From assembly GCA_023251095.1 (NCBI GenBank), contig JAHEZL010000002.1, forward strand, positions 186,001-250,000: a stretch of DNA of 64,000 nucleotides. The letters are read 5' to 3'. The notes beneath the pieces are model-generated. The model saw nothing but the letters and a program-made list of their open reading frames with translations. It did no database searches and had not been told where the DNA came from. The stretch is from Flavobacteriales bacterium (GTDB lineage: Bacteria > Bacteroidota > Bacteroidia > Flavobacteriales_C > GCA-002722245). Numbering within the stretch: the stretch's first letter is position 1; each line of letters starts with the position of its first letter. Made by a program: the position numbers and the translations under genes. Below, piece after piece: positions 1,345 to 53,900 of this stretch.

Positions 1345-2010
1345 TTAATCAATAAAGCCTAAGTGAAAGGCAATCGGCATTGCAGCGAAAAGCAAAGGAA
1401 CGATGATGGCAAACCAAAATCCTGCTGCTTTAATCATTGGTGTATATTTTTTGTGGTTCAATCCCAAAGATTGAAAAGCCGATTGGAAGCCATGCATTAA
1501 GTGGTAAGAAAGAGAAATGATACCCACTAAGTAAATCGCAACGAAATACCATTCAGCAAAAACGATTTTCATTTTTTCAAACGAGTTATGCTCTTCACCT
1601 GAAAACACCGCTTGTTTTGTAGGTATCCAGAAGTTTGCCATGTGCACAACCAAGAACAATAAAAGCAAAGAACCTAAAATCCCCATAGAGCGGGAATACC
1701 ATTTACTGCTATCATTGGAAGGAGGAACAGCATATTTTACCGGACGCGCCTTATTGTTTTGTATGGTAAGAATTAAGGATTGTACCATATGCAGTACAAG
1801 TCCAAAGAACAATCCTACTTCCATTATTCTTATAATAATGTTATGTGCCATGAAATTTGCTGCTGTATTAAAAGTTGCGCCGTGGTCAGGGACAAACACC
1901 AAAGAGTTGATTGTCACGTGAATTACCAGGAAGGAAATTAAAAACAAGCCTGTCAATGCCATTACATATTTCTTGGCTATTGACGACGTAAATAATTCTG
2001 AATTGCTCAT
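1345..2010 (-). CDS. sdhC: Succinate dehydrogenase cytochrome b558 subunit
   Basis: Membrane anchor of complex II; holds heme b and passes electrons from the SdhA/SdhB head to quinone. The 221-residue protein has five hydrophobic helices with His residues in the expected places (LVIHVTIN, LVLHMVQS, LVVHMANF, LSYHLMHG), typical of the single-subunit b558 type of Bacteroidota and epsilonproteobacteria. The open frame continues upstream to 2085, but those 25 extra codons run over a perfect promoter box (2042-2049). ATG at 2008-2010 (MSNSELFTSSIAKK) was therefore chosen. First gene of the sdhCA operon. Confidence 0.95.
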   Translation of the reverse strand: MSNSELFTSSIAKKYVMALTGLFLISFLVIHVTINSLVFVPDHGATFNTAANFMAHNIIIRIMEVGLFFGLVLHMVQSLILTIQNNKARPVKYAVPPSNDSSKWYSRSMGILGSLLLLFLVVHMANFWIPTKQAVFSGEEHNSFEKMKIVFAEWYFVAIYLVGIISLSYHLMHGFQSAFQSLGLNHKKYTPMIKAAGFWFAIIVPLLFAAMPIAFHLGFID

Positions 2011-2041
2011 TTGTAGATTTTTTAGTCCGTTTTTCGAGAGC

Positions 2042-2049
2042 CAAATATA
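2042..2049 (-). promoter_or_regulatory. sdhC promoter -7 box
   Basis: Reads TATATTTG on the minus strand, a perfect match to the Bacteroidota -7 consensus TAnnTTTG. It sits 31 bases upstream of the sdhC ATG. No good TTTG is seen at the -33 position. Confidence 0.5.
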
Positions 2050-2132
2050 AGATAACTTTAAAAAAAAACATACGTTCAAGACCACATTTACGGGTTATCT
2101 TAATTATTTAGACACTTTCTTTTTTGTAAAAC

Positions 2133-3428
2133 ATGAACCAACGATACGCCACCATTGATCCTTCGCTCTTTATCAGCAACCGAAAAAGATTTGTAGCAGA
2201 AATGAAACAGAAGGCGATTGCTATTTTTCATTCCAATGACGAAATGCCCCGCAATGGTGATTGCAACTACCCTTTCCGGCAAAACTCCGATTTTTTCTAT
2301 TTAACTGGAATTGATCAGGAACAAAGTGTTTTAATGTTGTTTCCCCAAAGTCCCGATCCGAAATTCAAAGAAGTTTTGTTTGTAAGAGAAACCGATGAGC
2401 ACACAAAAGTGTGGGAAGGAGAAAAATATACCAAGGAGGAAGCAAGAAAAGTATCGGGTATTCAAACGGTTTACTGGACTAAAGAATACGAGACTTTAAT
2501 GCAATGGCTTTCTGAAGAATGCAACTTTGTTTATTTAAACAACAATGAAAACGACAGGGCAAAAAACGAAGTGATTTCCCGTGATGCCCGATTGACGCCT
2601 CAAACCAAAAAGTTATTTCCCGGCAAACGCTTTGAACGTTCGGCACCTATAATGATAGCGCTTCGTGAAATTAAAAGCAAAACTGAAATTGAAATCATTA
2701 AAGAAGCCTGCTCCATCACCGAAAAAGCATTTCGCCGCACCTTACAATTTATTAAACCCGGTGTTTGGGAATATGAAATTGAAGCTGAAATTTCTCATGA
2801 ATTTACCATCAACCGTTCTAACGGACATGCTTATTCGCCTATCATTGCTGCAGGAAAAAATGCGTGTGTGCTGCACTATGTGAACAACAATCAACAGTGC
2901 AAAAAAGGCGATTTGATCCTGATGGATTTTGGTGCTGAGTATGCCAATTATGCTTCTGATTTAACGCGGACAGTGCCGGTGAGCGGCAAGTTTTCAAAAC
3001 GACAAAAAGCGGTTTACAATGGAGTGCTCAATGTTTTAAAAGAGTCGAGAAAACTGCTTGCAGCAGGAAATAATTTCTCCGATTACAATAAGCAAGTGCG
3101 CGCCATCATTGAAAAAGAATTAGTGGATCTCGGTTTGATCACTACAGCAGAAATTCGCAAACAGGATCCGCAAAATCCGGTTTTCCGAAAATATTTTATG
3201 CACGGCATTTCACATTTCATGGGCCTGGATGTTCATGATCTGGGGGATCGCAACAATAAATTTCAGGCGGGAATGATTTTCACTTGTGAGCCGGGGATCT
3301 ACATTCCTAAAGAGGGTATTGGTATCCGTTTGGAAAATGATATTCTCATTACTTCAAAAGGGCCGCAGGATTTAATGAAGAATATTCCGATTGAAATAGA
3401 TGAGATTGAGGAATTGATGAACGAATAA
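2133..3428 (+). CDS. pepP: Xaa-Pro aminopeptidase (aminopeptidase P), M24B family
   Basis: Dimetal peptidase that removes an N-terminal residue preceding proline. The 431-residue protein has the AMP_N domain in the first ~130 residues and a creatinase/aminopeptidase fold after that. All five metal ligands of the M24 family can be placed: Asp in LMDFGAEY, Asp in SDLTRT, His in GISHFMGLDVHD, Glu in CEPGIY and Glu in RLENDI. No signal peptide, so cytosolic. Transcribed divergently from sdhC; it ends at a strong hairpin shared with the converging yraN gene. Confidence 0.95.
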   Translation: MNQRYATIDPSLFISNRKRFVAEMKQKAIAIFHSNDEMPRNGDCNYPFRQNSDFFYLTGIDQEQSVLMLFPQSPDPKFKEVLFVRETDEHTKVWEGEKYTKEEARKVSGIQTVYWTKEYETLMQWLSEECNFVYLNNNENDRAKNEVISRDARLTPQTKKLFPGKRFERSAPIMIALREIKSKTEIEIIKEACSITEKAFRRTLQFIKPGVWEYEIEAEISHEFTINRSNGHAYSPIIAAGKNACVLHYVNNNQQCKKGDLILMDFGAEYANYASDLTRTVPVSGKFSKRQKAVYNGVLNVLKESRKLLAAGNNFSDYNKQVRAIIEKELVDLGLITTAEIRKQDPQNPVFRKYFMHGISHFMGLDVHDLGDRNNKFQAGMIFTCEPGIYIPKEGIGIRLENDILITSKGPQDLMKNIPIEIDEIEELMNE

Positions 3429-3498
3429 TTTTTCCCACAGATTTCACAGATTTACGCAGAACCACATCTGTGTAAATCTGTGAAATCTGTGGGAAAAA
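3429..3498. terminator. Perfect 27-bp hairpin, bidirectional terminator
   Basis: Arms 3429-3455 and 3472-3498 are exact reverse complements with a 16-base loop; A/T runs at both ends give a U-tract in either direction. It fills the whole gap between the converging stop codons of pepP and yraN. Each arm holds the repeated word CACAGATTT, a phrase I recall from intergenic hairpins in many Gram-negative genomes. Confidence 0.85.
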
Positions 3499-3499
3499 A

Positions 3500-3862
3500 T
3501 CACCAAGCATCCGTAAACGCATCTTCAATATGATTGACCCTCACTTCCTCCGTATTCAAAATAATTGAAATAATATCAAAGCGTACTTCTTCTTCCAGTT
3601 GATGTCTATTGATAAAAATTTGTGCGCCGTTGATGAGTTGCTGTTCTTTGCCTTTATCCACCGCTTCTTCAGGCTCACCAAAGAAATCCGTACTCCGTGT
3701 TTTTACTTCAATGAAAACAATGCGCTCGTCTTTTTCGGCAATTAAATCCACTTCAATTTTGCCGTAGCGCCAGTTTTTTTCGTGAATGATATATCCTTTG
3801 TTAAGGAGGTATTGCAAAGCAATGCGTTCGCCTTGTTTGCCGAGGTCGAAATGTTGTGCCAT
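3500..3862 (-). CDS. YraN / UPF0102 family endonuclease-like protein
   Basis: 120-residue protein of the UPF0102 family, a small fold related to restriction endonucleases and Holliday-junction resolvases; cellular role not established. Visible: GKQGERIALQYL near the N-terminus, the KIEVDLIAEKD segment with its acidic residues, and the VFIEVKTR motif, which together make the PD-(D/E)XK-like core. Full family length. It is 30 bases downstream of the VWA-domain gene on the same strand and its stop codon touches the 27-bp hairpin. Confidence 0.92.
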   Translation of the reverse strand: MAQHFDLGKQGERIALQYLLNKGYIIHEKNWRYGKIEVDLIAEKDERIVFIEVKTRSTDFFGEPEEAVDKGKEQQLINGAQIFINRHQLEEEVRFDIISIILNTEEVRVNHIEDAFTDAW

Positions 3863-3892
3863 TGTAAATTGTTTAATTAAGCTGCTGCTAAA

Positions 3893-5014
3893 CTAATCCA
3901 ATATTTCGTGAAAATTATCGGTTTGCGCATTGAAAATTTCCATGAGCACAATGTAAAAGGAGCGTTTGATGATGGGGCGGTATTCCTGATAATATTCGCG
4001 GGTTAATATTTTATTTCTTTGCGCTACAATGGCTGTGATTTCCTGCAGATAAAGCCGTTCTTCCTTCTTAATATTGACAAAACGAAAGATGTCTTTGAAG
4101 CTCATTTTCTGATATTCGAGAGGCAGTGTTTTTTTATCCAGAGCAGTGCTGTCGAGTTTCCCATTCACAATACTTAAATCCACTAAATCCCAGTCTTTAT
4201 TGACACCGATATAGTTATCCGAAATTTTATACATTAATCTGAACTCCAAACAAATCGGTCCGGTTTCCCTTGCGTAGTCATCCATTCCCATATACTTTGC
4301 AAATTTCTTCTCCCCGTCTTCACCATAAGCAATAAAGGTAGAATTGAATTTATCGTTCACTTCGGCAATGAAATTACTATTAGAGGATTTAATGTCTTTT
4401 TCCCATGGGAGGGCTACAGCAGGATCAATTACCGTTGAAATGCCATTGCACAATTTTGCTAGTTTTTGCCATTGAATAATTTCCCTTTCGCTTTGATAGG
4501 TTTGGTAATAAATGGTGTTGACTATAATTCCTTTTTTCGTTGAAAGCTTAATCAGTTCCGCCATATCCTCATTGCCTGTTAAAGCGCCATTGCCAATCAT
4601 AACAATGGTTTTGTAGGTGTCGGGGTCTTTGCTCCAGCTGAGTTGAGTCATGCAGGTGAGTGCCGCCTTTTCGGGATAATTTTCTTTTGCATTTACTAAA
4701 ACCTGCGTAGCATACAATTCCTGTTGAATGAAATTGATGTTTTTACTTAAGTCGGAGACTTGTTTAATGTAATCGTTTTCTTTTCCGTAGCCCGGTTTTC
4801 CGTACAATACCAAACCTACATATACATCGGGCTGAGGCTGGTACGAGGTAAGGTAATACATGATGTACCACATGTTGGTACGCATGGCTTCCAGTAAACC
4901 ATCGGTGCTTGCACTAAGATCAACACAAAATGCAATCTCCATGCGTTTGTGTGTTGCCGCTGGCATTGTATTCAAATTAAAAATTAATACGAAGAGTATT
5001 AATGCTTTTTTCAT
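3893..5014 (-). CDS. Secreted von Willebrand factor A domain protein
   Basis: 373 residues with a short N-terminal signal peptide (MKKALILFVLIFNLN) and a VWA domain straight after it. The MIDAS metal site DxSxS is present as DLSAS, followed by TVIDPAV-type core strands up to about residue 200. The C-terminal ~170 residues match no family I can name. VWA proteins of this type usually bind proteins through the MIDAS metal; partner and role here are unknown. It probably shares a transcript with yraN and is divergent from the gene at 5117. Confidence 0.75.
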   Translation of the reverse strand: MKKALILFVLIFNLNTMPAATHKRMEIAFCVDLSASTDGLLEAMRTNMWYIMYYLTSYQPQPDVYVGLVLYGKPGYGKENDYIKQVSDLSKNINFIQQELYATQVLVNAKENYPEKAALTCMTQLSWSKDPDTYKTIVMIGNGALTGNEDMAELIKLSTKKGIIVNTIYYQTYQSEREIIQWQKLAKLCNGISTVIDPAVALPWEKDIKSSNSNFIAEVNDKFNSTFIAYGEDGEKKFAKYMGMDDYARETGPICLEFRLMYKISDNYIGVNKDWDLVDLSIVNGKLDSTALDKKTLPLEYQKMSFKDIFRFVNIKKEERLYLQEITAIVAQRNKILTREYYQEYRPIIKRSFYIVLMEIFNAQTDNFHEILD

Positions 5015-5116
5015 CCCGGTTCTTCTAGAAAATTGACGAATAAGTTATCAGCCTTTACCAAAAACCTTTTCATCAATGTACCAATATCTGTATTTTTATC
5101 CAATAGATATAAAATT

Positions 5117-5461
5117 ATGGATGACAAATTACAAGAGGAGTGGGCAAAAGTTGAAAAGATGGTGGAAGAAAAATTCGGTGAAGACATAGATGTTCGCGGA
5201 ATTCTTTTTTTAATCGGTGTTCAGGAGTTAGGGAAAGGCTATAAAAAATTTACCAAGGATCAGAAGCTGGAGGTCATTCATATTGCCATTTGCAAACTGC
5301 TCAGTCAGTTCAACTATTATGAATACATGGGCGTGGATGAAGATGGCTGGCCACATTATAAGGAAACCAAAAAATTGCCTTTGCTTAAACCGGGTGAACA
5401 ATTAAAAGTGATGAAATCCGCAATTGTAGAATACTTTAAAGAAAGCGGAGAATTGGTATAG
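5117..5461 (+). CDS. Conserved Bacteroidota protein of unknown function
   Basis: 114-residue soluble, acidic-basic mixed helical protein. I recognise the pattern IGVQELGKGYKKF...HIAICKLL...YYEYMGVDEDGWPHY as an uncharacterised protein kept across Bacteroidota; no function is known to me. A longer frame starts at 5033, but the first 28 codons look unlike protein (mixed hydrophobic, no family match) and overlap the upstream region of the divergent VWA gene, so ATG at 5117 is preferred. It ends two bases from the converging lipoprotein gene. Confidence 0.8.
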   Translation: MDDKLQEEWAKVEKMVEEKFGEDIDVRGILFLIGVQELGKGYKKFTKDQKLEVIHIAICKLLSQFNYYEYMGVDEDGWPHYKETKKLPLLKPGEQLKVMKSAIVEYFKESGELV

Positions 5462-5462
5462 C

Positions 5463-5831
5463 TTACTTAAGCTTGATTGTTACTGATACAGTTTGCCCGA
5501 CTTCAGTAGCAATAACACCCGAACCTGTTTGAGATCCTGCAGTTACCAAAACACTTGGTGTTGCAGGCAAAGCCAAACAAAAACTTGCGGTTCCTGAACT
5601 ACCGGAAGTAAGGGTTATTTCGGAAACCTGACCCCCGTTACAAGGATAAAATCCGGCAGGAGGAGTTACATATATTTTAATTGTTGCACCAACTATAGGA
5701 TCACCTGTTGCCAGATCAACGCATTTGATTTCTCCTGTACAATTAGTATTGTGAGGACAGCCAGTAAATAATAAAGCTATAGCAATAAAAAAGCTAGAGA
5801 TAGAGAGTACCTTACTGATTCGAAACTTCAT
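5463..5831 (-). CDS. Small lipoprotein with Ig-like/carboxypeptidase-regulatory-like fold
   Basis: 122 residues. The N-terminus MKFRISKV plus hydrophobic stretch ending LLFTGC is a lipoprotein signal, with Cys as the lipidated residue. The mature part is Gly/Thr/Val-rich with a carboxypeptidase-regulatory-like pattern (VDLATGDPIVGATIKI), suggesting one beta-sandwich domain. Four further Cys lie in the mature part. An alternative start at 5861 would add ten residues before the signal peptide and is less likely. Function unknown. Confidence 0.65.
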   Translation of the reverse strand: MKFRISKVLSISSFFIAIALLFTGCPHNTNCTGEIKCVDLATGDPIVGATIKIYVTPPAGFYPCNGGQVSEITLTSGSSGTASFCLALPATPSVLVTAGSQTGSGVIATEVGQTVSVTIKLK

Positions 5832-22184: not shown

Positions 22185-22338
22185 TTTCCTTCCGGCAGTA
22201 ACTTTTCCTTTTTTATCGGATCATACAGATATGATTTGCATAAAAGGGATGAACACACCTTAATTTTTTAATTATAAAAATCGTTTTTCATTTGTACCTT
22301 TCCAACACTTTCTAAAGGAACAAATTTTAAACGGCACC

Positions 22339-22827
22339 TTGAATAACGAACGATATAACGCATTGGTAAAGGAACATACAGGGGGACTGTATAAGTTTCT
22401 TTATAAATCAATACGGGATAAAGATGTGGTGAAGGATTTGTTGCAGGATTCTTTTTTGAAATTATGGGAGCACAAAGAAAACATTCAGGAAGGGAAAGAA
22501 AAATCATGGCTTTTCACTACTGCTTATCACTTTATGCTGAAGTATCTTGAAAAAGATAAAAAGAATGTACGTTCGGATGAACCCATTCATGTGGCGGTAA
22601 AACCGAATAATGAATTTGAAACACAGGAATTAATTGATTTGCTTTTATTAAAACTCCCGCCGCTGCAAAAGTCGATTTTATTGTTGCGCGACATGGAGGG
22701 CTACGATTACAAGGAAATAGGTGAAATATTAAATTTAAACGAATCACAAGTTAAAGTGTACCTGTTCAGGGCGCGCCAAAAAGTACGCGAAGAACTGAAA
22801 GCATTGAATATTGATTTGGATTTATGA
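22339..22827 (+). CDS. ECF RNA polymerase sigma factor
   Basis: 162-residue sigma-70 family protein with only regions 2 and 4, as in ECF sigmas. Region 2: HTGGLYKFLYKSIRDKDVVKDLLQDSFLKLWEH; region 4 helix-turn-helix: LPPLQKSILLLRDMEGYDYKEIGEILNLNESQVKVYLFRARQKV (shown here in parts only as positions ~112-155). The start is a TTG at 22339, since no ATG lies before region 2. Its stop overlaps the next gene (ATGATGA), the anti-sigma factor. Directs transcription of an unknown regulon. Confidence 0.9.
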   Translation: MNNERYNALVKEHTGGLYKFLYKSIRDKDVVKDLLQDSFLKLWEHKENIQEGKEKSWLFTTAYHFMLKYLEKDKKNVRSDEPIHVAVKPNNEFETQELIDLLLLKLPPLQKSILLLRDMEGYDYKEIGEILNLNESQVKVYLFRARQKVREELKALNIDLDL

Positions 22828-23492
22828 TGAAGGAACTCAACCATATTAATTTTGACGAATGGCTTTTCTCTTATTTTGAAGGGACATTAAATGCTGAAGA
22901 AAAACAGCGTTTTGTGGATTTTGTAAATGCCAATCCTTCATTGAAAGAGAGCATGGATTTAATGGATGTTTCTTTTGTATCAGCTGTTAATGTTGAAGTT
23001 CCAAAGGGATTGGAAAAACAATTCATGAAAGTTAAGTGGTATGCAAAACCATGGTCGAAAGGGTTAATGCTTACCGCCGGAGTAGGGATAGTCGTTGCCG
23101 CTATAGTGCTGTTCCAACAAAAAGAAAAATCACCCTTGGTTCCGAAATCGCAGAACAATACTATTGAAAACTCTGCCGGCATTTCCGATACTTCTTCTAC
23201 TTTGTATTTTGAAAAAGCAGGAGAAAGTAAGCACAATAAATCGTTTCAGCGACCGCATCAGTTTTTTATGGATAAGCATGAAAGTGCGCCTGCCCCTGAT
23301 CAAACAGAAGAAAAAATTAAAAAAGATTCCGACCTTACGGTTATTGCAACACCGGAAACTAAAATTGAAAATGTAAAAAGTGTTGTTCCTGTTTCTGCTA
23401 CGGTCGACAAGAAAAATGAAACGAAGGAAGGTCTTCCGAAAAAGAAAAAAAGCAAAGCAGATCAGGAGATTTTAGATTCGCAGTTGCAATAA
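22824..23492 (+). CDS. Putative anti-sigma factor, single-pass membrane protein
   Basis: 222 residues. The N-terminal ~70 residues look like a cytoplasmic sigma-binding helical domain (FDEWLFSYFEGTLNAEEKQRFVDFV), with no zinc-binding His/Cys motif. One membrane helix follows at about 74-92 (GLMLTAGVGIVVAAIVLF), and the periplasmic tail is Lys/Glu-rich and low in complexity. Four-base overlap with the sigma gene is the usual arrangement for an ECF/anti-sigma pair. Assigned from position and layout, not from a named domain. Confidence 0.75.
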   Translation: MMKELNHINFDEWLFSYFEGTLNAEEKQRFVDFVNANPSLKESMDLMDVSFVSAVNVEVPKGLEKQFMKVKWYAKPWSKGLMLTAGVGIVVAAIVLFQQKEKSPLVPKSQNNTIENSAGISDTSSTLYFEKAGESKHNKSFQRPHQFFMDKHESAPAPDQTEEKIKKDSDLTVIATPETKIENVKSVVPVSATVDKKNETKEGLPKKKKSKADQEILDSQLQ

Positions 23493-23495
23493 TAT

Positions 23496-24410
23496 ATGGA
23501 GAGAAAAGCAGGATATATTTTACTTCTTTTTTCTTTTATTTCATTTACTGTCCATAGTCAGTATTATCAACCTTTTTCACAGGGACAATCTTTACCGCTG
23601 TATCAAAATCCATCTTTTGCCGGCACTTTAGTTTATCCGAGATTTACTATTGGCGGTGTAATGAATTCCTCTGATGAAAGTGCTTTCACGGTGTTGGGTG
23701 TTTCCAGGTTTTATTGTTCTTTCGATCAATATCTTCCTGCAATTAAAAGCGGAGTAGGAATCATGTACACGTCTAATCCTGATATTTATACTCCTTTAAA
23801 AACGCAAAGAGTGCAGGGTGAAATTTCCTGCTCACCGAAAATTAAATTGAAAAATAAATTTACTTTATCTCTCGGGGCTTCTATTGGTATTTCAAGTGTT
23901 TTAGCCGATTCCGATACTTTAAATGCGTATTCAAATCATAGTTATTCAGCTTCTCCTTTTTTGTGTTATTCAGGAGGAGCTATTTTGCATTCTCCTACTT
24001 TTTATGTTGGATATTCTTTGCGAAGATTTCCAAGTTTGAAAACAGAATACCTCAGCTACAATCCATTAAAATATGATTTGATTCAGAGATCTAAATTTGT
24101 TTCAACCGCTCAGCTCGGCTATGTTTTCAGAAAAAAGAAAAGTGATAAAATAACTTTTTCTCCTGCTTTGCTGTTGCAGTTTTATCATATGGACAATGGG
24201 TTTATTCAAACGCGCTATCAGGTAAATTTCAGTTTGAAACGCAATTTCTTTTTTTGGGGAGCGGGCTTTAGTTCAAATTCCAGTTTTATGACGATAGGAT
24301 TTCACGGTGAAAAAATACGTTTGGCTTATTCGGCATCATTGATTAATCAGGGAGGTAACCCTTTTGTAGTGGCGCAGGAAATGGTTTTTTCATATACGTT
24401 TATCAAATGA
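23496..24410 (+). CDS. PorP/SprF family outer-membrane protein
   Basis: 304 residues with a signal peptide (to about residue 21, FTVHS-Q) followed by QPLYQNPSFAG, the hallmark start of PorP/SprF proteins. The rest alternates beta strands as in a 14-strand barrel and ends in a terminal aromatic strand (VFSYTFIK). These proteins serve T9SS and pair with type B cargo such as SprB to hold it on the surface. Only three bases from the anti-sigma gene and four-base overlap with the next. No cargo gene is adjacent. Confidence 0.85.
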   Translation: MERKAGYILLLFSFISFTVHSQYYQPFSQGQSLPLYQNPSFAGTLVYPRFTIGGVMNSSDESAFTVLGVSRFYCSFDQYLPAIKSGVGIMYTSNPDIYTPLKTQRVQGEISCSPKIKLKNKFTLSLGASIGISSVLADSDTLNAYSNHSYSASPFLCYSGGAILHSPTFYVGYSLRRFPSLKTEYLSYNPLKYDLIQRSKFVSTAQLGYVFRKKKSDKITFSPALLLQFYHMDNGFIQTRYQVNFSLKRNFFFWGAGFSSNSSFMTIGFHGEKIRLAYSASLINQGGNPFVVAQEMVFSYTFIK

Positions 24411-24964
24411 ATGGGAGTAGTAAAATAGCGATCCTAATCATTTTATTCTTCACCTCGTGCAGTTCTTTTCACATTGCAAAAAAACGTTACAGCGATGGGT
24501 TTTACGTCGATTATTCTAAATCCGAAACAGTAAAAAACACAAGTAAAAAATCAAAACAAAAAACTGAAACAGATTCAACAAGTGAGGTGAACAATGCTGC
24601 AAAAGAAAGATCCGACAGCCTTGTAAATCCTGCAAAAGATTCAATACAGGAGAAAACACAAATGGCGGATACCATAAATACCACGGCAATTATTTCCCCC
24701 GACACTATACAAAAAATTGATGCTGTTGAAGTGATTCTTCTGGATAATGATAAGCAACAAATGATAGTTGACGAGGATGAGGACGATACATCAGAGCTTG
24801 AAAATTTATTGCTTTTCATTTTGTGCATCATTGCACCTCCTTTTGCTGTAGCTATTAAGTTTGGCGAAGATTCTAAAAAATTCCGCATCGCAATAGTATT
24901 AACTCTTTTAGGATGGATACCGGGAGTGTTTTATGCCTTTTTTCAAATTTCCGGCGACGAATAA
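24407..24964 (+). CDS. Lipoprotein with a C-terminal Pmp3/YqaE membrane domain
   Basis: 185 residues in three parts. A lipoprotein signal ends FFTSC. A Ser/Thr/Lys/Asp-rich low-complexity linker covers ~25-130. The last ~50 residues hold two membrane helices matching the Pmp3/YqaE family (LFILCIIAPPFAVAIKF then LTLLGWIPGVFYAFFQI). Pmp3 proteins are tiny stress-linked membrane proteins. Joined here to a lipoprotein anchor, the protein would be tied to the membrane twice. Overlaps PorP/SprF by four bases, so it is the last gene of the sigma operon. Confidence 0.85.
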   Translation: MNGSSKIAILIILFFTSCSSFHIAKKRYSDGFYVDYSKSETVKNTSKKSKQKTETDSTSEVNNAAKERSDSLVNPAKDSIQEKTQMADTINTTAIISPDTIQKIDAVEVILLDNDKQQMIVDEDEDDTSELENLLLFILCIIAPPFAVAIKFGEDSKKFRIAIVLTLLGWIPGVFYAFFQISGDE

Positions 24965-25033: not shown

Positions 25034-25076
25034 CTTGCCGTTGTAACAAATTGTTAATTGCAGGATCATACAGTCA

Positions 25077-27344
25077 ATGAAAATAATTTTAGTTAACTTT
25101 TTTCTTGTTTTTAGCTGCTCTCTTTTCAGTCAGAATTTCAGAGTCAGCGGTACCGTAACCGACGAAGAAAGCGGTGAGGTATTGTCATTTGCTTCAGTGT
25201 ATATTCCCGAAACCAATTTCAGCACCACTACCAATAATTACGGGTACTTCTCCTTGTCTTTACCTGTGGATACCTATAAGTTGAGCATAAGTGCTTTGGG
25301 CTATGTTACCAATGTGACGGATATCAATCCTTCGTCTGCTTCCAACCTTAAAATTTCATTGAGAAGAGAAGTGAAAAAAACAGCTGAAATTGTGATCAAA
25401 AGAAAAAAATCGCAGTTGGAGGAAATTCACAATTCCACGCAAATGAGTACCATAAAAATCCCGGTAAAGGACATTAAAAATATTCCTACCATAGGCGGAG
25501 AATCTGATTTAATAAAGGTTGTACAACTCCTTCCCGGTGTTCAAAGAGGTGGTGAGGGACAAACCGGAATGTTTGTGCGGGGCGGTGATGCCGATCAGAA
25601 TTTAATTATTCTGGATGAAGCAGTGGTGTACAATATCAGTCATCTTTTCGGATTTTTTTCGGTGTTTAATTCCGATGCCATTAAAGAACTTACTTTGATT
25701 AAAGGGGCTTTTCCGGGGAATTATGGAGGAAGGCTTTCATCGGTTTTGGATATCAGAATGAACGATGGTAACATGACTAAATTCACTGCCGCAGGAGGTG
25801 TTGGTTTATTGTCCTCCCGACTCACCATAGGAGGGCCCATTGTAAAAAATAAAGTTTCCTTCATGTTGTCGGGAAGAAGAACTTATATCGATCAGGTTTT
25901 TAAATTGGTGGGCATTCCTTTACCTTATTATTTCTACGATTTAAATGCAAAACTGAATTTTGTTTTAGGTAAAAAAGATCGTTTGTATTTCAGTTCTTAT
26001 CTGGGAAATGATATACTTTCCTTTAAGGATCAGCAAAGCGAGGGAATTGGTTTTGGATTTAAACTGGGAAATATCACCAATACTTTGCGCTGGAATCATA
26101 TTTTCGGCGACAGATTGTTTGCCAATACTTCTTTTATCAATACGCTTTTTGACTATGACATTACAGGAAAATTTGAAAGTAATTCCTTGTACATTTCTTC
26201 TAAAGTGAATGATTACGGAGTGAAAACAGATTTTAATTATTACCACTCTCCAAACTTTAACTACAAATTTGGTGCGCAGGCGATACAACACATCTTTCGT
26301 CCGAACATCATCAGCACCAACGGAGAGATTTCTGATTTTTTGAAAAGTAAACCGGCCAATAGTTTATATGCCCTGGAGTACGCGCTTTATGGAAATATGG
26401 ATTGGTCGCTGATGGATAAAAAAATGCAAATCACGGCTGCGCTCCGCCTCTCGGGCTGTGCGGTAAAAAATAAAATGTATATCGCTCCCGAACCACGATT
26501 AGCAATGAAATATTCCATCACAAAAAATGATATTGTAAAAGCAAGTTATGCGCGCATGAACCAGTACATGCATTTGGTTTCCAGCTCTACTGTTGCTTTG
26601 CCAACCGATTTGTGGTATCCTGTAACGGCGGGAATTAAACCACAAACATCCGATCAGATCGCTGTTGCCTATTCCCGCATGTTTTCAAAAATTGCCACCA
26701 ATATTTCCGTGGAAGGATATTATAAATGGATGAACAATCTGGTGGAATATAAGGAGGGCGCCAACCTGGTGCTGAATGATCAGTTTGAAAAAGAATTGTT
26801 GCAGGGCAAAGGAAATGCTTACGGTGTGGAGTTTTTGGTGAAACGTGATGAAGGCCGGATAAGTGGCTGGGTGGGTTATACCTTGTCGTGGGCCAATCGC
26901 TACTTTCCTGATTTGAACAACGGAAATCCTTATCCGGCAAAATACGACAGACGACACAATTTAAATGTGGTGGCCAATATAAAACTCACCGAAAGATGGA
27001 CTTTTTCTGCTGTGTTTGTTTATGCTTCAGGATCACGATTTACTCCTCAGATCGGCGCTTATACTGTTCCTAACGCCTCGTTTACCGGTGTTGAAATCAT
27101 TCCGGTGTTCACTAGTAAAAATGCAATATCAATGTCGGCTACTAACCGTCTCGATATTAATTTTGTGCGCAAATGCAAACCTTATAAGGGCTATAAAGGC
27201 GAATGGCATTTTGGCGCTTACAATGTTTACAACAGCAACACACCCTACAAAATTTATTTTCAAGCGGATGAAAAGGGAAGAAGATATATGGAAAAAGGTT
27301 TGTTCGGAATGATTCCTTCTATAGCCTATAACTTTGAATTTTAG
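25077..27344 (+). CDS. TonB-dependent outer-membrane receptor with carboxypeptidase-like N-domain
   Basis: 755 residues. A signal peptide leads to a carboxypeptidase-regulatory-like domain (~22-100, FRVSGTVTDEESGEVLSFASV), the plug (LPGVQRGGEGQTGMFVRGG, FPGNYGGRLSSVLDI) and a barrel ending in the terminal aromatic strand (IAYNFEF). Takes up an unknown ligand using proton-motive force. The paired DUF4249 lipoprotein follows after four bases, a standing arrangement in Bacteroidota. Confidence 0.92.
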   Translation: MKIILVNFFLVFSCSLFSQNFRVSGTVTDEESGEVLSFASVYIPETNFSTTTNNYGYFSLSLPVDTYKLSISALGYVTNVTDINPSSASNLKISLRREVKKTAEIVIKRKKSQLEEIHNSTQMSTIKIPVKDIKNIPTIGGESDLIKVVQLLPGVQRGGEGQTGMFVRGGDADQNLIILDEAVVYNISHLFGFFSVFNSDAIKELTLIKGAFPGNYGGRLSSVLDIRMNDGNMTKFTAAGGVGLLSSRLTIGGPIVKNKVSFMLSGRRTYIDQVFKLVGIPLPYYFYDLNAKLNFVLGKKDRLYFSSYLGNDILSFKDQQSEGIGFGFKLGNITNTLRWNHIFGDRLFANTSFINTLFDYDITGKFESNSLYISSKVNDYGVKTDFNYYHSPNFNYKFGAQAIQHIFRPNIISTNGEISDFLKSKPANSLYALEYALYGNMDWSLMDKKMQITAALRLSGCAVKNKMYIAPEPRLAMKYSITKNDIVKASYARMNQYMHLVSSSTVALPTDLWYPVTAGIKPQTSDQIAVAYSRMFSKIATNISVEGYYKWMNNLVEYKEGANLVLNDQFEKELLQGKGNAYGVEFLVKRDEGRISGWVGYTLSWANRYFPDLNNGNPYPAKYDRRHNLNVVANIKLTERWTFSAVFVYASGSRFTPQIGAYTVPNASFTGVEIIPVFTSKNAISMSATNRLDINFVRKCKPYKGYKGEWHFGAYNVYNSNTPYKIYFQADEKGRRYMEKGLFGMIPSIAYNFEF

Positions 27345-27348
27345 AATT

Positions 27349-28221
27349 ATGAAAATTATAGTATTTCTCTTTTCCTTATTGATTTTGCAGGGTTGTTTGC
27401 CCGACGACAAGCAAATTTTTATTCCTGCTCATGAACCTAAACTGGTGGTGTTCACTCAGGTAATTCCCAACTCAGTAATGATTGTTGCGTTGGCAAAAAG
27501 TTTTTCTATTCTCGATTCGGGTTATACTGCTTCTGATGGCGGTAGTGGCAATGCCGACAGCACTTTACTGGCGAATTTATTGGTGGAGGATGCTACTGTT
27601 GTTATTTCCTATCAGGGCAAAACCGATACACTCATCAATATGGGGAAAGGAATTTACGTTAGCTTAACTATTCCGCAGGTGGTGGATGAGAACTATGAAC
27701 TTTCGGTAGTGGATCATAAATCCAAATTACAAATCACAGCTTCTGAAAGAATGTTGCCGCAGGTGAATTTAAACGACGCTTCTTTCAGCAAACAAACAAA
27801 CGGAACTTTTAAGTTGAATTATAGTTTTGAAGATCCTGCCGGCAGCAACTGGTACATGATGAATGTTTATCAGGTGGATTCTACTAAGCTGGATACCTCT
27901 CAGTTTCAGGTGCAAAATCTTTTTGGTAACGGTAGCAATCAGCTGGCGCAAACTTTGTTTTTTTCCGATCAGGGTTTTTCCGATAAAAACGCAGCGGGAT
28001 CTTTAGCCGTTGATATTGATACAAGTATTACAAAGGATTTCATTGTGACCCTGTCGAATATCAGTCCGCAATACTATAGCTATTTAGACAAGCGCAATAA
28101 AAGTCAGAATATCTTCACCGAAATTTTTAAAGAGGCCATTAATTATCCCACCAATGTGAAAGGTGGTTACGGCTTTTTTTTAACGCATCACCCTTCTATA
28201 AAATACATTCATCTTCCCTGA
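27349..28221 (+). CDS. DUF4249 lipoprotein, TonB receptor partner
   Basis: 290 residues with a lipoprotein signal (FLFSLLILQGC). A DUF4249-type body follows: LVVFTQVIPNS, LLVEDATVVISYQG, GIYVSLTIPQVVDENYELSV, VNLNDASF, NWYMMNVYQV. Presumed surface lipoprotein that works with the receptor next to it. ATG at 27349 chosen over an in-frame start five codons earlier that would spoil the signal peptide. Confidence 0.85.
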   Translation: MKIIVFLFSLLILQGCLPDDKQIFIPAHEPKLVVFTQVIPNSVMIVALAKSFSILDSGYTASDGGSGNADSTLLANLLVEDATVVISYQGKTDTLINMGKGIYVSLTIPQVVDENYELSVVDHKSKLQITASERMLPQVNLNDASFSKQTNGTFKLNYSFEDPAGSNWYMMNVYQVDSTKLDTSQFQVQNLFGNGSNQLAQTLFFSDQGFSDKNAAGSLAVDIDTSITKDFIVTLSNISPQYYSYLDKRNKSQNIFTEIFKEAINYPTNVKGGYGFFLTHHPSIKYIHLP

Positions 28222-29162: not shown

Positions 29163-31982
29163 CTACAACTTCGAAATAAACTCCGTTATTGAATTTTCAT
29201 CCTTAATTCCCAACTTATCTTTCAAGCGGTATTTTCTTTTCTCAACGCCACTGATGGAAATGTTTAGCAAATCAGCAATTTCCTTATTCGATTTACCCAT
29301 GCGTATGTGAGAACACATCAACATTGTGGATTCATTCATTTTTGGATCCAGTTGTTTCAGTTTCTGAAAAAAGTTGTCGTTGGTTTTATCAAAGTGCATT
29401 TGAAATTTTTCCCAGTTTTCCGTCTCTTTATCTTCTACTCCGATAGAGCGGATGAGAGTTTTAAGTTCGTTGGAATTTTTATCGTCTACTATATTTTTCG
29501 ACAATTGACTCAAATTGCTTTTCAAAAAAGTAAGGAATTGTTTTTTCTGAGTATAGTTCAAAGCGAGGAAAGCCATCTCGTCGTTTTTGCGTTGCAGCTC
29601 CATTTCCAGCAACTCGGTTTTATGTACTGCTTCCTTGTTTTGTAATTCCCGTGTTTTCTCCTGCTCCAGTTTTTTTCGTTGTGTATTGAAGCGGAAGCGA
29701 ACCACGCGAATGAGAATGAAAGTAATGGCGATGATCAACAGGAGATAAACAACATAAGCAAATTTCGAGCGGAACCAGGGAGGTGAAATGGTGAAAGTCA
29801 TTGTTCCGGCCGGACTCAGCGTTCCGTTCATTTCCGCCCATACTTTAAAAGTGTATTCTCCTTCGGGTAAGTTGGTGAATTCTTTGAAAGGGTTTTGCGA
29901 TAAATCTTTCCAGGTGATTTTTTTGTCTTTGGCACTCAATTCCGTGTGATAAAACACGTTGCTGTAGGTTCCATAAACAGGGATAGAAAAGTAAAATGCC
30001 AGGTTGTTGTATTTGTAGTTCAAGGCCATCGGGATATTATATCCCATTGACAGTACGGAGTCTTCCGGCAGGTTTAACAATTTTACGCTGCGGATCAAAC
30101 ATTTTGGCAGCGGTGTAGTGCTTTGAGGATGATAAATGGCAAAGCCTTGCTGGGAAGCGATCATATAGGAGTCTTCGCCCAGTTTCCCTACATATTCAGC
30201 ACTTCCCACCAATTTGTCTTTTAAGTTATTGGGGGAATGAGCGCCTACTATGTATTTCCCGTTGCTCAATTCAATGAAAACCGGACGCTCGTTTTGAATG
30301 AGATAAAGGGTTTGGTATTCTCCCTCTACTGCCCGCAGTCGGGTGGTAGATACTTTGATATCGCTGAAAGCCGGGTCTTTGATCAGAGCGTCTTTGTCGT
30401 CCAGATAATAAATTCCTCCTTCTGAGGACACTTTCAATTGATTGCCTACTTTGACGATGTCATTGAAATAGTCGGGAGTGAAATGGTATTTACTACAATA
30501 ATTTTCAACGGAAACAGCGTTTTTCAAATTTTTATCCAGTTCAATCCTGAACAATCCCGAAATTCCCTGAACCAACCAGAGGATTCCTTTATTGTCGAAT
30601 TCAAACATTCTGGCGGATTCCTTAAATCCGGAAATGGCATTTTTAAAAACCCAGTGTCCTTTTCGGAAAGCATAAATGCGGAGATCTTCATAAGTTCCGC
30701 ATATTAACAGCGTATCAATGTTGGGAATTCTTTTGAAAGTCCAGGCGCTTAAACCTGTTCCATCCGATATTCTTTTGGCCTTCCCATTGGTGATTTCATA
30801 AAATTCGTGTTCATCGGAACAAAGAATTACTCCTTTCAGAATTTTGACGTTGTTGGCCAGTAAGCCCACATTTTCTGCTTTAATAAAAGGTTTATTTTGA
30901 CTAGCCGACCAGTGGGGAGAATAATACAAACCCTGTGAGCTGCCTAAGTAAAGCGTGTCATTGTATAAAAGACTGGAGTAACCCATGCCTTCAAAATCCT
31001 GTAATTCATTAATGAATTCAAAAGAAGAACTCAGCTTCACCACCGCAATTCCATTGTTTAGCGGAGCCCATAAATCACCTTTTGAATCAAGATATAAGTT
31101 CCTGATATAGTTGCTTTTAAGTCCGCTCTTCTTATTGAAGCTTCTTAATATATTGCCATTCTCATTACAAATCAATATCCCCGATTCTTCCGTTCCAACA
31201 GCAAAAAGCTTGTTCCCAATGGCTACTGCTGAAGTAATAATGGTTTTTTCAGGAACACCATTGCGGGACAAAGGTGTTTTGCTTACTGCGCCGTGCTGTA
31301 CTTTAACAATTCCTCCCTTTTCAAATAAAGTATAATCTGATTCCCCATTCTTAAAGAAAGCGCAAAACACTTGATTATCAATATTTTGATGAGTAGGGAT
31401 TTTTACAAAAGCACCATCCACAATTTTCCCTAAACCCCTCATGCTTTCATATACCAGCAGCTCATTGCCGACCAGGCCGAGATAGGAAAACTGGGCCGGA
31501 TTGGATTTTTCATCCATGGCCGGATGAATAACGGTTACCGTTTTTCCATTGTAAACATAAATTGCTTCATAGGAAGAGAAATAAACATCTCCTTTATAAA
31601 AAGCGACGTGATAAATCACGCCTATTTTTTTATTTGATTCGATGATTTTGTTTTTGAGGGAAATAAATTTTGTTATTCCAACCTTGTCTTTTTCCAGGTA
31701 ACCTATGTCCCCAAAGGATCCCAGGAATATTTTACCTTCTTTGTCTTTAGCAAAACAACTCGGACTCTGACCGTTACTTACAGGTATGCGTCTCCAGTTG
31801 ATGCCGTCAAATTCCAATACCGAATAAGCATTGGCGATGTACATGATTCCAACAGAATCCTCTGTAGCTGAGTAGTTTATGGAGTGGCCAACGTAATCGT
31901 CAGTCGTGTAATTAAAAATTTCAGGTTGCGTTGCCTTAAGGACAAAAGGGAGAAATAATAAAAGTGCAAGTAGTTTTTTCAT
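29163..31982 (-). CDS. Membrane one-component regulator: beta-propeller sensor, triple-Tyr domain, LuxR-type HTH
   Basis: 939 residues. A signal peptide is followed by a two-component-regulator-propeller sensor (~20-640). A triple-tyrosine (Y_Y_Y) domain lies at ~650-735, one membrane helix at ~741-764, then a coiled coil (~765-810) and a LuxR-like helix-turn-helix at the end (~880-925, GKSNKEIADLLNISISGVEKRKYRLKDKLG). It has no kinase or receiver domain, so the sensor and DNA-binding parts sit on one chain across the inner membrane. Such proteins are known in Bacteroidota; ligand and targets unknown. Confidence 0.9.
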   Translation of the reverse strand: MKKLLALLLFLPFVLKATQPEIFNYTTDDYVGHSINYSATEDSVGIMYIANAYSVLEFDGINWRRIPVSNGQSPSCFAKDKEGKIFLGSFGDIGYLEKDKVGITKFISLKNKIIESNKKIGVIYHVAFYKGDVYFSSYEAIYVYNGKTVTVIHPAMDEKSNPAQFSYLGLVGNELLVYESMRGLGKIVDGAFVKIPTHQNIDNQVFCAFFKNGESDYTLFEKGGIVKVQHGAVSKTPLSRNGVPEKTIITSAVAIGNKLFAVGTEESGILICNENGNILRSFNKKSGLKSNYIRNLYLDSKGDLWAPLNNGIAVVKLSSSFEFINELQDFEGMGYSSLLYNDTLYLGSSQGLYYSPHWSASQNKPFIKAENVGLLANNVKILKGVILCSDEHEFYEITNGKAKRISDGTGLSAWTFKRIPNIDTLLICGTYEDLRIYAFRKGHWVFKNAISGFKESARMFEFDNKGILWLVQGISGLFRIELDKNLKNAVSVENYCSKYHFTPDYFNDIVKVGNQLKVSSEGGIYYLDDKDALIKDPAFSDIKVSTTRLRAVEGEYQTLYLIQNERPVFIELSNGKYIVGAHSPNNLKDKLVGSAEYVGKLGEDSYMIASQQGFAIYHPQSTTPLPKCLIRSVKLLNLPEDSVLSMGYNIPMALNYKYNNLAFYFSIPVYGTYSNVFYHTELSAKDKKITWKDLSQNPFKEFTNLPEGEYTFKVWAEMNGTLSPAGTMTFTISPPWFRSKFAYVVYLLLIIAITFILIRVVRFRFNTQRKKLEQEKTRELQNKEAVHKTELLEMELQRKNDEMAFLALNYTQKKQFLTFLKSNLSQLSKNIVDDKNSNELKTLIRSIGVEDKETENWEKFQMHFDKTNDNFFQKLKQLDPKMNESTMLMCSHIRMGKSNKEIADLLNISISGVEKRKYRLKDKLGIKDENSITEFISKL

Positions 31983-33468: not shown

Positions 33469-35289
33469 TCAATGCAGCACAGTAACGCTTCCTACTTTTT
33501 CTTTTTTCTTATCTTCTGTCCAATAGATTTTCCAAACATATACATCCACCTGCACAGGTTTTCCTTTGTAAGTCCCGTCCCAACCCTCAGTGATATCAAA
33601 ACTTTCGTGAATCAGTTCTCCCCATCTGTTGAAAATCAGCAGATGAAAATCTTTTATGTTGATTCCTTCGGCATAAAACACATCGTTGTTTCCGTCTTTA
33701 TTTAAGGGCGTAAAAGCGTTGGGAACAAAGAGGGTATAAGGGCACCATTCATTTATTACAACAGTATCTTTGATACTGCAGGTTCCGTTGATCAGGGTTA
33801 AAGTATAAGTTCCTTCATGTGTAACGATAGTGGCCGACGTTGAATCACCATTGTCCCAAAGATAATGTTGTGCTCCGTTGCCCGCATCAAGTGTGATGGA
33901 ACGGATATCATCAAAACAAACAACGCTGTCGGTAAATAAATTGGAAAAGGGAAAAGGAGACACAGTAATTAAAACGGTGTCGTAAACCGGACAATTGGAA
34001 TCATAATAAGCTTTCAGTCGGATTTCAGAAGTGGTATTTACAACAATGGATGGTGTGGTTTCCGCTGTCGACCATAATAATTTTCCGCCGGTAAAATCAG
34101 AGTTAATCGTTGCCGATTGTCCTTGGCAAAGTCCGATATCCGGCCCCAGATCTATTACAGGTTTAGGAATGACGGTTAAAATTACTGAGTCTTTTGATTT
34201 GCAATTATTAGTGTCGGTGACCACAACACTATACGTTCCTGAGCTTGATTTTGAAATGCTTTGCGAACTTTCTCCCGATGACCAGAGATAGGAATCTCCC
34301 GGATTTCCTGCATCAAAAGTAAGTGCCGGACTTCCTTCACAAATGGATTGATCCAAACCTAAATTAACGGAGGGTTTATTGTTCACGGCAATATTTACCG
34401 TATCCTTCCAGGTTTCAAAACAATGACCGGTGATGTCCACAATGTACTGAGTATTTGCGCCCGGATAAAATATCGGATTGGGAGAAGAGGCTGAATTCAT
34501 TCCTGTTGTAGGCTGCCAGCTGTAAGTAAGATCTCCGCTTAAATCAATTTGAACGCTGTCGCCTGCGCAAAGAGCGGCATCCATTTTTTTGGAGTGTGTG
34601 AAATGAAATCCGCGCACACTCTGTTCATTGGTTGACCCACCGGTGGAGGCGGTAAATCCGTAATACACCATGTTGTTGCCTCCGAAAACAGAAGCAATGA
34701 TGTCATTGTTGTAAGTCAATCTTAAAGTACAGTCGAAATATACTTCCATGGTATGTGTGGCCGCATCCCATTTCACGCGGGCTTTATGCCATTGTCCGTT
34801 TTCAATATCAACGTTACTGACATTCGCCTGAATGGGTCCGGCCAAAAGCGTGGCAGGCAAACTATGATCGGCAATTCCATTTTTTTCAATGGCAATATGA
34901 TCATAAACGGGATCAAGATAATCGGTGTTTTGGTAAGTGTCGTATTCCACAATTAACGAAGGAGTGATACCCGTAGCACCCAATCCGCCACCCGCTCCGC
35001 CGGCATTGGTGCCTTGTCGCTGCAGAGTGAAAGTGATGCCGTCGGCACCGTCATCATGATTGCCGAAATAGCATTCGAAAAATATATCGAATGAATTGTT
35101 GAGGTCGATTTTATTCACATTCCAAACGCTTCCGTTTTGCCATTGAATATCTTGGGTGAGTCGGTAGGTTGTTGGATTTGTTTGTAAAGCTTTCCCCACC
35201 AGAGAATATTGAGCTCTGAGCGAAGAAAAGAAAAGGAAAAAAAATATAATCACTAAAAGGCAAAAGCCCGATGGTTTTGGTTTAAACAT
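33469..35289 (-). CDS. T9SS-secreted L-type lectin adhesin (606 residues)
   Basis: Signal peptide (to residue 26, LRA-Q), then a legume-type lectin domain (~27-235) with DDGADGITFTLQRQG, EYDTYQN and DHIAIEKNG. Several Ig/PKD-like Cys-containing repeats follow (SICEGSPALTFDAG, DIGLCQGQSATINS). A type B sorting domain ends the protein (NAFTPLNKDGNNDVF, FNRWGELIHES, WDGTYKGKPVQVDVYVWKI). The type B tail targets the protein through T9SS to the surface, where the lectin fold probably binds sugar. The N-terminal half is a close paralog of the protein at 47629-50628. Confidence 0.9.
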   Translation of the reverse strand: MFKPKPSGFCLLVIIFFFLFFSSLRAQYSLVGKALQTNPTTYRLTQDIQWQNGSVWNVNKIDLNNSFDIFFECYFGNHDDGADGITFTLQRQGTNAGGAGGGLGATGITPSLIVEYDTYQNTDYLDPVYDHIAIEKNGIADHSLPATLLAGPIQANVSNVDIENGQWHKARVKWDAATHTMEVYFDCTLRLTYNNDIIASVFGGNNMVYYGFTASTGGSTNEQSVRGFHFTHSKKMDAALCAGDSVQIDLSGDLTYSWQPTTGMNSASSPNPIFYPGANTQYIVDITGHCFETWKDTVNIAVNNKPSVNLGLDQSICEGSPALTFDAGNPGDSYLWSSGESSQSISKSSSGTYSVVVTDTNNCKSKDSVILTVIPKPVIDLGPDIGLCQGQSATINSDFTGGKLLWSTAETTPSIVVNTTSEIRLKAYYDSNCPVYDTVLITVSPFPFSNLFTDSVVCFDDIRSITLDAGNGAQHYLWDNGDSTSATIVTHEGTYTLTLINGTCSIKDTVVINEWCPYTLFVPNAFTPLNKDGNNDVFYAEGINIKDFHLLIFNRWGELIHESFDITEGWDGTYKGKPVQVDVYVWKIYWTEDKKKEKVGSVTVLH

Positions 35290-50931: not shown

Positions 50932-53900
50932 TTATTCCATCAGCGTTAAGAAGCTGGCGATTTCATAATTTTTGCCTGCTGAATTCTGGTATCTGATGAC
51001 AAAATAGTAGGTTCCTGATGCAGCAGGCAATCCATTGAATTTACCATCCCAATTCGGTAATACATTTTCTTCTGAATAAAACATGAAGCGTCCCCATCTG
51101 TCATAAACACCAAAGCTGATGATGCGCACATTGGCCACTACTTTCGGGAAGTTGGAATCATCAACGCCTTTTGGTTTGAAAACATCATTAATGCCATCAC
51201 CGTTTGGCGTAATTACATCAGGCCAGTCGAGAATAAAATCATCGCAATGGATGGTCACGGCAATACTATCAGAGATGGAACATTGGTTAGAATCCGTTAC
51301 TTGTACCCAATAAGATTCAGGTGCTGTAATCACAATAGATGTAAGATCCGCTTGTCCGGTGCTCCACAACAATTGTTTGGTTCCGCTATATTGAGCTGTT
51401 AAAGTTACTTTGTCGTAATCATTGTTGCAGATGGTTACATCATTTCCTAAATCAACAGAAGGTAAAGCATGCACCTGAACAAAAATGGTGTCGTTTCTTG
51501 AGCAGCCGATGTTATCGCTTACTGTTACGATGTACTGCCCTGTTGTATTCACCGAAATAGTTGCTGTTTGAGCGGCATTCGACCATAAATAATTCAGCAG
51601 AATATTGGTTCCCGGATCAAGCGTCACAGCTTGTCCCTGACACATAAAAGTATCTACTCCTAATTTTGGTGAAGGGAAAGTATTTACTGTTAAAAATGCA
51701 TTGTCGGTAGCGGTACAGCCGAGTCCGTTGGTCACGGTAATGGTATAAGTTCCTTGTGTTGCCGCCGGAGTAGTTCGCAGTCCGCCTGTTCCCAATCCTG
51801 TCCAGGTATAAGTTGTAAATCCGGCTCCTGCATCAAAAGTAGTACTGCTTCCATCACAAACCGCTTTATCATTCACCGTCACTGAAATCGGGTCAATGGT
51901 AAGGGTAGCAGCAGATGAATTGGTTGATGGACAAATTCCCGATTTTACGATTGCCCGGTATTTTGTAGTAAGAGTAATGTTGTTGTAAGCTTGGGAAGCG
52001 GTGAGATTTACAATAGGAGTTGAGGTTGTGAAATTATCTGTTGAACTTTCCCAACCTGTTATACTTCCTGTATTTCCCGCAAGTGTTAAAGTACCTGAGT
52101 TAGCACCTGAACAAACCGTTGCATCTGCAGTAACAGTTCCCCCAACAGAAACAGGGTTAATGGTAATAGTTGCTGCAGAAGAATTATCTGAAGCACAAGT
52201 TCCTGATTTCACTATCGCTCGGTATTTGGTAGTAGCCACAATGTTGGTGTAAGTTTGAGAACTTGTTGTATTTACAATAGGAGTAGTGCTTACAAAATTA
52301 TCTATTGAGCTTTCCCAACCTGTTACCAATCCTGTATTTCCTGCAAGTGATACCGTTCCCGAGTTGGCACCTGAACACACCGTAGCATCAGCAGTTACAA
52401 CACCTCCAACAGAAACAGGATCAACGGTAATTGTTGCTGCGGAAGAATTGGTACCTACACAAACCCCTGATTTTACAAGGGCTCTGTATTTCGTTGTTGT
52501 GCTGATATTGTTGTAAAGCAAAGAATCCGTGAGATTTACTATTGGTGTTGACGTTCCAAAATTATTAACAGAACTTTCCCAGCCTGTGATAATTCCTGTA
52601 TATCCTGCCAGGAATAGCTTTCCTGAATTGCTGCCTGAACATACCGTTGCATTGGCACTTACCGTTCCTCCTCGCGAAACAGGATCAACTGTTACGGTTG
52701 CGCTGGTGGAATTGGCAGAAGCGCAGGTTCCCGATTTAACCACCGCCCTGTATTTTGTAGTTGTTGCGATGTTTGTGTAAGTAAGAGAAGTCGTCAAATT
52801 TACAATAGGAGTAGCGCTCACAAAATTATCTGTTGAGCTTTCCCAACCTGTTACACTTCCTGTGTTTCCTGCAAGTGTTAAAGTTCCTGCATTGGCACCT
52901 GAACATACAGTAATATCGGCAGTAACAGCACCTCCAACAGAAACAGGATCAACTGTGATTGTTGCAGCAGAGGAATTGGCAGAAGCACAGGTTCCCGATT
53001 GCACGATTGCTCTGTATTTAGTAGTAGCAATGATGTTGGTATAACTTTGTGATGTAGTAACATTTACAATCGGAGTAGTGCTTACAAAATTATCTGTTGA
53101 ACTTTCCCAGCCTATTACCAATCCTGTATTTCCTGCAAGTGTAAGCGTTCCTGAGTTAGATCCCGAACAAACCGTTGCGTTTTGTGCTACAGTTCCACCT
53201 ACCGAAACAGGATCAACTGTAATTGTTGCGCTTGTCGAATTGGCAGAAGCACAGCTTCCTGATTTCACCACCGCTCTATATTTGGTAGTGGTAGTAATGT
53301 TCGTATAAGTTAAAGAAGTAGTCACATTTACAATCGGAGTAGTACTCACAAAATTATCCGTTGAACTTTCCCAACCTGTTACAGATCCTGTATTTCCGGC
53401 AAGATTTAATGTTCCGGTGTTCGCTCCTGAACAAACCGTTGCATCAGCAGTAACCCCTCCTCCGGCAGAAACCGGATCAACGCTAATCGTTGCGCTTGTA
53501 GAATTGGCGGAAGCACAAGTTCCTGATTTCACTACCGCTCTGTATTTGGTAGTAGCAACAATGTTAGTATAAGATTGTGATGCGGTAAGATTTACAATCG
53601 GAGTAGTACTCACAAAATTATCCGTTGAGCTTTCCCAACCTGTTATAGTTCCTGTGTTCCCGGCAAGCGTCAACGTTCCTGAATTAGCTCCTGAACACAC
53701 CGTAGCGTCAGCAGTAACTGTTCCGCCCACAGAAACCGGATCAACAGTAATTGTTGCAGCGTTTGAATTATCTGAAGCACAAGTTCCTGATTTTACAACT
53801 GCTCTGTATTTAGTGGTTGTGGTGATATTTAAATAAGCTTGAGTGGTGGTAACATTGGCAATATCCACTGGAGTCACGAAATTATCAGTAGAGCTTTGCC

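Follow-up and report, generated by a model that had tools for sequence, protein, structure and literature searches.

A split ECF sigma/anti-sigma operon in a Flavobacteriales bacterium with a PorP/SprF barrel as its proposed outer-membrane sensor

To our knowledge, it is poorly understood how Bacteroidota adjust T9SS cargo production to their capacity for secretion. An operon that places a PorP/SprF-family barrel directly behind an ECF sigma factor and an anti-sigma factor raises the question of whether the barrel is a product of sigma control or a part of it. We analyzed such an operon in a stretch of 64,000 nucleotides (the window) from a Flavobacteriales bacterium (GCA_023251095.1, JAHEZL010000002.1, positions 186,001 to 250,000, forward strand). 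Four genes follow one another on the plus strand: an ECF sigma factor (22339 to 22827; 162 residues), an anti-sigma factor (22824 to 23492; 222 residues), the PorP/SprF-family outer-membrane barrel that we propose as the sensor half (23496 to 24410; 304 residues), and a lipoprotein (24407 to 24964; 185 residues). An earlier sequence-only reading had described these four open reading frames as overlapping or nearly touching. The spacing bears this out, with a 4-nt overlap, a 3-nt gap, and a second 4-nt overlap, and Pfam backs the sigma, PorP_SprF, and Pmp3 assignments.

The sigma gene begins with a TTG codon, conserved in all 10 homologues checked, and its product contains Pfam sigma-70 regions 2 and 4 (Sigma70_r4_2 at 63.7 bits). 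The best NCBIfam match, NF058625 (the PG0214/GFO_1088 sigma family), reaches 113.6 bits, under the cut-off of 130, and a match to TIGR02985 is also below cut-off. The barrel protein, which has its own signal peptide, matches PF11751 (PorP_SprF) at 50.8 bits against a gathering cut-off of 22.3, and TIGR03519 at 62.3 bits, under the cut-off of 90.55. The fourth product has a lipobox, FTSC, read from the sequence, and a C-terminal Pmp3 module (residues 134 to 181; 24806 to 24949, plus strand) with two hydrophobic helices (PF01679, 53.1 bits versus a cut-off of 22.9). The anti-sigma protein has no significant Pfam match.

Two paralogous operons in the same genome join the second and third genes into one. 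The C42 operon (L065, G000:C42:102500-109500; 2484 to 5681, minus strand) encodes an ECF sigma factor, a 556-residue fused anti-sigma/PorP barrel, and a second PorP; its sigma factor exceeds the NF058625 cut-off of 130, at 139.1. The C10 operon (L072, G000:C10:7000-12500; 1475 to 4622, minus strand) encodes an ECF sigma factor, a 642-residue fused anti-sigma/PorP barrel, and a small type B CTD protein. Both fused proteins consist of an anti-sigma domain, a membrane helix, a low-complexity linker, and a C-terminal PorP/SprF barrel in one polypeptide; in the window, the barrel has a gene of its own immediately after that of the anti-sigma factor. The modeled structure of one fused relative comprises three N-terminal helices, a helix at residues 72 to 98, a low-confidence stretch at 113 to 242, and the barrel.

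The window anti-sigma factor resembles the front half of these fusions. An HMM of fused N termini, built excluding the window's own genus, matches it at 48.8 bits (E=3e-14), whereas the best of 2000 shuffles reaches 15.2 bits; this agrees with the anti-sigma identity proposed earlier. Its N-terminal anti-sigma domain is homologous to the fused domain, which is helical in the model, and is predicted to partner with the sigma factor. A single inner-membrane helix predicted by hydropathy (residues 80 to 98; 23061 to 23117, plus strand) matches helix 72 to 98 of the model and is followed by a long disordered periplasmic tether. Compared with its counterpart in the sister species G003, the protein is about 65 to 90% identical in the N-domain and 15 to 35% identical across most of the tether, and its fast-evolving residues 99 to 210 correspond to the low-confidence stretch of the fused model. 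Conservation returns at the extreme C terminus, which reads LDxxLQ in the three sequences compared.

A search with the sigma factor returned 80 loci, most of them in Crocinitomicaceae and other Flavobacteriales. The gene after sigma is a fusion in 61 of the 80 and is split as in the window in 4, and many of the remaining loci are interrupted by contig ends. A further stand-alone PorP is present in 54 of the 61 fused loci. In a phylum-wide search with the anti-sigma N terminus, only the window genome among 395 sampled genomes had a fused form, so this form is not widespread across Bacteroidota. The genomes compared are mostly metagenome assembled. A motif that seemed to precede the barrel in the two fusions of this genome was not general (0/60). 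A second ECF lineage includes the fused C10 form as well as split sigma/anti-sigma/PorP operons in other families (L076 to L078), with anti-sigma homology that is clear for L078 (E=1.5e-10), marginal for L077, and not found for L076. These comparisons uphold the earlier view that the sigma/anti-sigma operon is linked to a PorP/SprF protein. Further, the fused relatives point to a sensing role for the barrel, as one half of a trans-envelope anti-sigma device, and not to output alone. Recurrence of fused and split forms in more than one lineage is a usual sign of cooperating parts, and its occurrence in more than one ECF lineage here implies that the two parts probably work together.

We also compared the window barrel with other PorP proteins. 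It is predicted to fold as a 14-strand barrel (pLDDT 80.6, pTM 0.79), and the nearest solved folds include FadL and OmpG. It matches the fused barrels at 5e-23 and the second PorPs at 4e-16. In a larger tree, its neighbors are split Sporocytophaga PorPs (99/96), on the fused-barrel side; an AU test rejects a clade in which these split PorPs fall together with the stand-alone second PorPs (p=0.0005). The window barrel therefore appears, by sequence, to group with the fused barrels rather than with ordinary shuttles, at a deciding fork that is weakly supported (69/89) and with the window PorP on a long branch.

The barrel could instead be an output inherited from another arrangement. A T9SS shuttle would then be made once a free-standing anti-sigma factor, sensing some other periplasmic cue, releases the sigma factor. 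The separate gene and signal peptide of the window PorP are compatible with such an output, as are the extra stand-alone PorPs made by most fused-type sigma operons, and orphan PorP/SprF shuttles serving unlinked cargo are known (PMC12618676). The separation of the window PorP from the second PorPs, its position with fused and split barrels, and the recurrence of both arrangements across ECF lineages argue against this explanation, which we consider unlikely, although it is the strongest competitor.

We therefore favor, with a probability of roughly 0.58, the reading that the window operon is a split envelope-spanning anti-sigma device with the PorP/SprF barrel as its outer-membrane sensor and with a sigma factor that serves its own operon and a neighboring receptor operon. 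The product of gene 2 would reach from an anti-sigma domain in the cytoplasm through one inner-membrane helix into a disordered tether in the periplasm, and the conserved C terminus of this tether would dock onto the outer-membrane barrel encoded by gene 3; in the one-piece relatives, one polypeptide carries both halves. Some event at the barrel, most likely the arrival or departure of a surface or T9SS ligand, would alter the anti-sigma factor and free the sigma factor. The targets of the freed sigma factor would be its own operon and the TonB receptor/DUF4249 operon, both read from GTAAC-N16-GATCWTAC promoters. The sequence-based parts of this explanation are the gene order, the homology of both halves to fused proteins, the predicted barrel fold, and a pair of promoters with its matching change in G003; from these we infer that the sigma and anti-sigma factors bind each other and that the tether docks, as well as the ligand and which way the switch works.

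The closest known system is Dma, defined as an N-terminal anti-sigma domain, a membrane helix, a disordered tether, and a C-terminal beta-barrel in one polypeptide, with an adjacent ECF21 sigma factor; its reported outputs are vesiculation and polysaccharide loci (PMC13088901). The window operon shares the one membrane helix, the long disordered tether, the link to an outer-membrane barrel, and the ECF sigma gene alongside, and its putative N-terminal anti-sigma domain would correspond to that of Dma, but its barrel is a separate gene, so it is Dma-like in its proposed action and not Dma by definition. The fused relatives fit the Dma architecture, but their barrel is PorP/SprF, a family that is not mentioned in PMC13088901. 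Compared with PorP/SprF shuttles (PMC12618676, PMC9143113), the window PorP belongs to the same Pfam family and has a predicted 14-strand barrel; unlike them, it has no adjacent CTD cargo gene, falls in the group of fused or sigma-linked barrels, and is a proposed sensor. Among the papers searched, none unites PorP/SprF proteins and anti-sigma factors as one device.

The predicted targets of the window sigma factor come from its putative promoters. A predicted ECF promoter, GTAAC-N15-GGATCATACAG, lies at 22198 to 22228 (plus strand), 141 nt before the sigma start, and a second copy lies at 25043 to 25073 (plus strand), just before a gene at 25077. That gene (25077 to 27344, plus strand) encodes a TonB-dependent receptor with a CarboxypepD_reg-like N-domain (Pfam), and its open reading frame overlaps that of a DUF4249 protein (27334 to 28221, plus strand; PF14054, 80.3 bits), a predicted cotranscribed target. 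These are the only two exact copies among the 704 kb of genome examined (regulons were sought by pattern matching and in retrieved stretches covering about a fifth of the genome), and 3.84 Mb of Markov sequence contain no copy. The corresponding sites of G003 both read GTAAC-N16-GATCTTAC, the same change in both copies. From this pair and its matching change, we predict that the window sigma factor directs transcription of its own operon and of the TonB receptor/DUF4249 operon. We had at one stage dismissed GGATCATACAG as chance, as G003 has no exact copy of the word; the fixed-spacing GTAAC box and the GATCTTAC pair overturned that dismissal. A conserved 20-nt block, CGTTTTTCATTTGTACCTTT (22282 to 22301, plus strand), lies between the promoter and the sigma gene and is kept in G003 and largely in G002; as a regulon motif, its matches were not above control.

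The shared promoter also bears on whether this is cell-surface signaling of the FecI/FecR/FecA type, with the adjacent TonB receptor as the receptor of the anti-sigma factor. As in Fec systems, sigma and anti-sigma genes stand beside a TonB receptor gene; the receptor operon carries the same predicted sigma promoter, and the C42 sigma operon likewise has a homologous receptor gene and a DUF4249 gene next to it. In contrast to Fec systems, the window has neither FecR in the anti-sigma factor nor an STN domain in the receptor (Pfam, E up to 1), and no receptor gene follows the PorP gene in G002. We regard a Fec-type mechanism as improbable. The window operon and the C42 operon each have a TonB receptor gene and a DUF4249-like gene at their flank (25077 to 28221 and L373:8354-11624, respectively), and because of these shared flanks, with receptors that are 39% identical, the two blocks look like diverged duplicates.

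The C42 paralogue has a promoter footprint of its own. C42-type sigma genes are preceded by TGTAAC-N15/16-TTGTTTTAG (motif B) in 61/61 fused loci and also in the split loci L159, L203, and L212. A whole-genome pattern search for exact motif B gave four matches, versus none for the control: the sigma promoter and three sites shortly upstream of giant CHU_C (type B CTD) genes. Allowing up to two mismatches on the sense strand, motif B precedes 13 of the 68 CTD genes whose starts were examined (3 exact, 6 with one mismatch, and 4 with two; for example, at G000:C6:99590, C27:28460, and C43:29612). On both strands of the other 704 kb, only the sigma promoter has at most one mismatch, and the two sites with two mismatches lie inside open reading frames. 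With a leave-one-out matrix, 16 genes score at least 14 bits, compared with about 0.2 expected from background (3 sites per 608 kb of strand). In loci of other species, most motif B sites away from the sigma gene precede PorP genes or genes for secreted proteins with T9SS-like tails, as judged by eye. Further copies stand before a 464-residue secreted protein in the Sporocytophaga split operons L203 and L212, at about 8330. The C42 sigma factor therefore appears, from these sites, to control a regulon of giant T9SS adhesins. Its region-4 helix is nearly identical to that of the window sigma factor and its region 2 is different, a pattern that would fit a common GTAAC box with different -10 boxes.

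The sequence-only reading had placed such adhesins under the window sigma factor. The window does hold three type B CTD genes with no PorP neighbor (33469 to 35289, 47629 to 50628, and 50932 to 55935), as it stated, but this is the background of the genome, in which 65 of 72 CTD matches have no same-strand PorP within 1 kb. No CTD gene was found within 9 kb of the window PorP. The notion of a single T9SS partner fails genome-wide, as there are 14 PorP/SprF genes, among which the window PorP scores lowest. SprA, the T9SS translocon, is present in the genome, and a Bacteroides control genome gave no PorP_SprF match. This genome does appear to place T9SS adhesins under sigma control, but the motif matches assign that control to the C42 paralogue and not to the window sigma factor. 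The earlier model, in which the three window adhesins respond to stress through the sigma pair and use the window PorP as their shuttle, gains from their type B CTDs and from the paralogous adhesin regulon but is highly improbable given the 13 further PorP genes, the general absence of PorP neighbors, and upstream regions of the three genes that contain neither the window sigma motif nor motif B; the adhesins are accordingly not among the predicted targets.

The split-device reading can be set within a broader and more tentative one, which we hold as a serious possibility with the odds somewhat against it: that T9SS shuttle barrels joined to anti-sigma factors read type B CTD traffic at the outer membrane and set the transcription of cargo adhesins and shuttles. 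Three lineages would coexist in this genome: C42, fused and with an extra shuttle (CTD-adhesin regulon); C10, fused and with its own small CTD protein; and the window, split (receptor regulon). In the C10 lineage, the gene after the sigma and fusion genes encodes a small type B CTD protein of about 211 to 218 residues in 8/8 genomes of two genera; in the window genome this protein matches TIGR04131 at 46.5 bits, above the cut-off of 35. Because the PorP/SprF family handles type B CTDs (PMC12618676; PMC9143113), this protein is a natural candidate ligand for the barrel. In Porphyromonas gingivalis, PorA-PorXY-SigP similarly links a CTD protein and an ECF sigma factor in T9SS control, through a two-component system, and the PorXY-SigP route controls T9SS structural genes (PMC7712824). 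Here, unlike in that route, the barrel would be joined or docked to the anti-sigma factor with no two-component step implied, and the targets would be cargo, shuttle, or receptor genes. If true, a cargo-shuttle barrel linked to an anti-sigma factor would let the secretion surface act directly on transcription and would extend the Dma class to T9SS biology, and the conserved promoter motif predicts a testable regulon of giant adhesins.

The fourth gene is less constant than the other three. The four-gene order, which the sequence-only reading had proposed to search for, is intact in the window and recurs in G003, but there the Pmp3 lipoprotein orthologue is interrupted by an in-frame stop (L032, G003:C24:13842-14372). 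The order is partial in G002, where sigma and anti-sigma/PorP pieces lie at contig ends and no lipoprotein follows; a close lipoprotein homologue lies elsewhere on the same contig. No close PorP orthologue was found in G001 or G004. The Pmp3 lipoprotein, although confirmed here by Pfam, is linked to the operon only in the window genome and G003 among the sampled genomes; it is at most an accessory of the operon and would be a recent addition to the device. Lipoproteins resembling it occur singly in many genomes (L033 to L060), several with a Pmp3-like tail; they have no sigma or PorP neighbor, and none accounts for the Pmp3 tail. On the minus strand of the window, at 29163 to 31982, a large regulator with two-component propeller repeats, a Y_Y_Y domain, and a LuxR-type end faces the DUF4249/methyltransferase side of the cluster.
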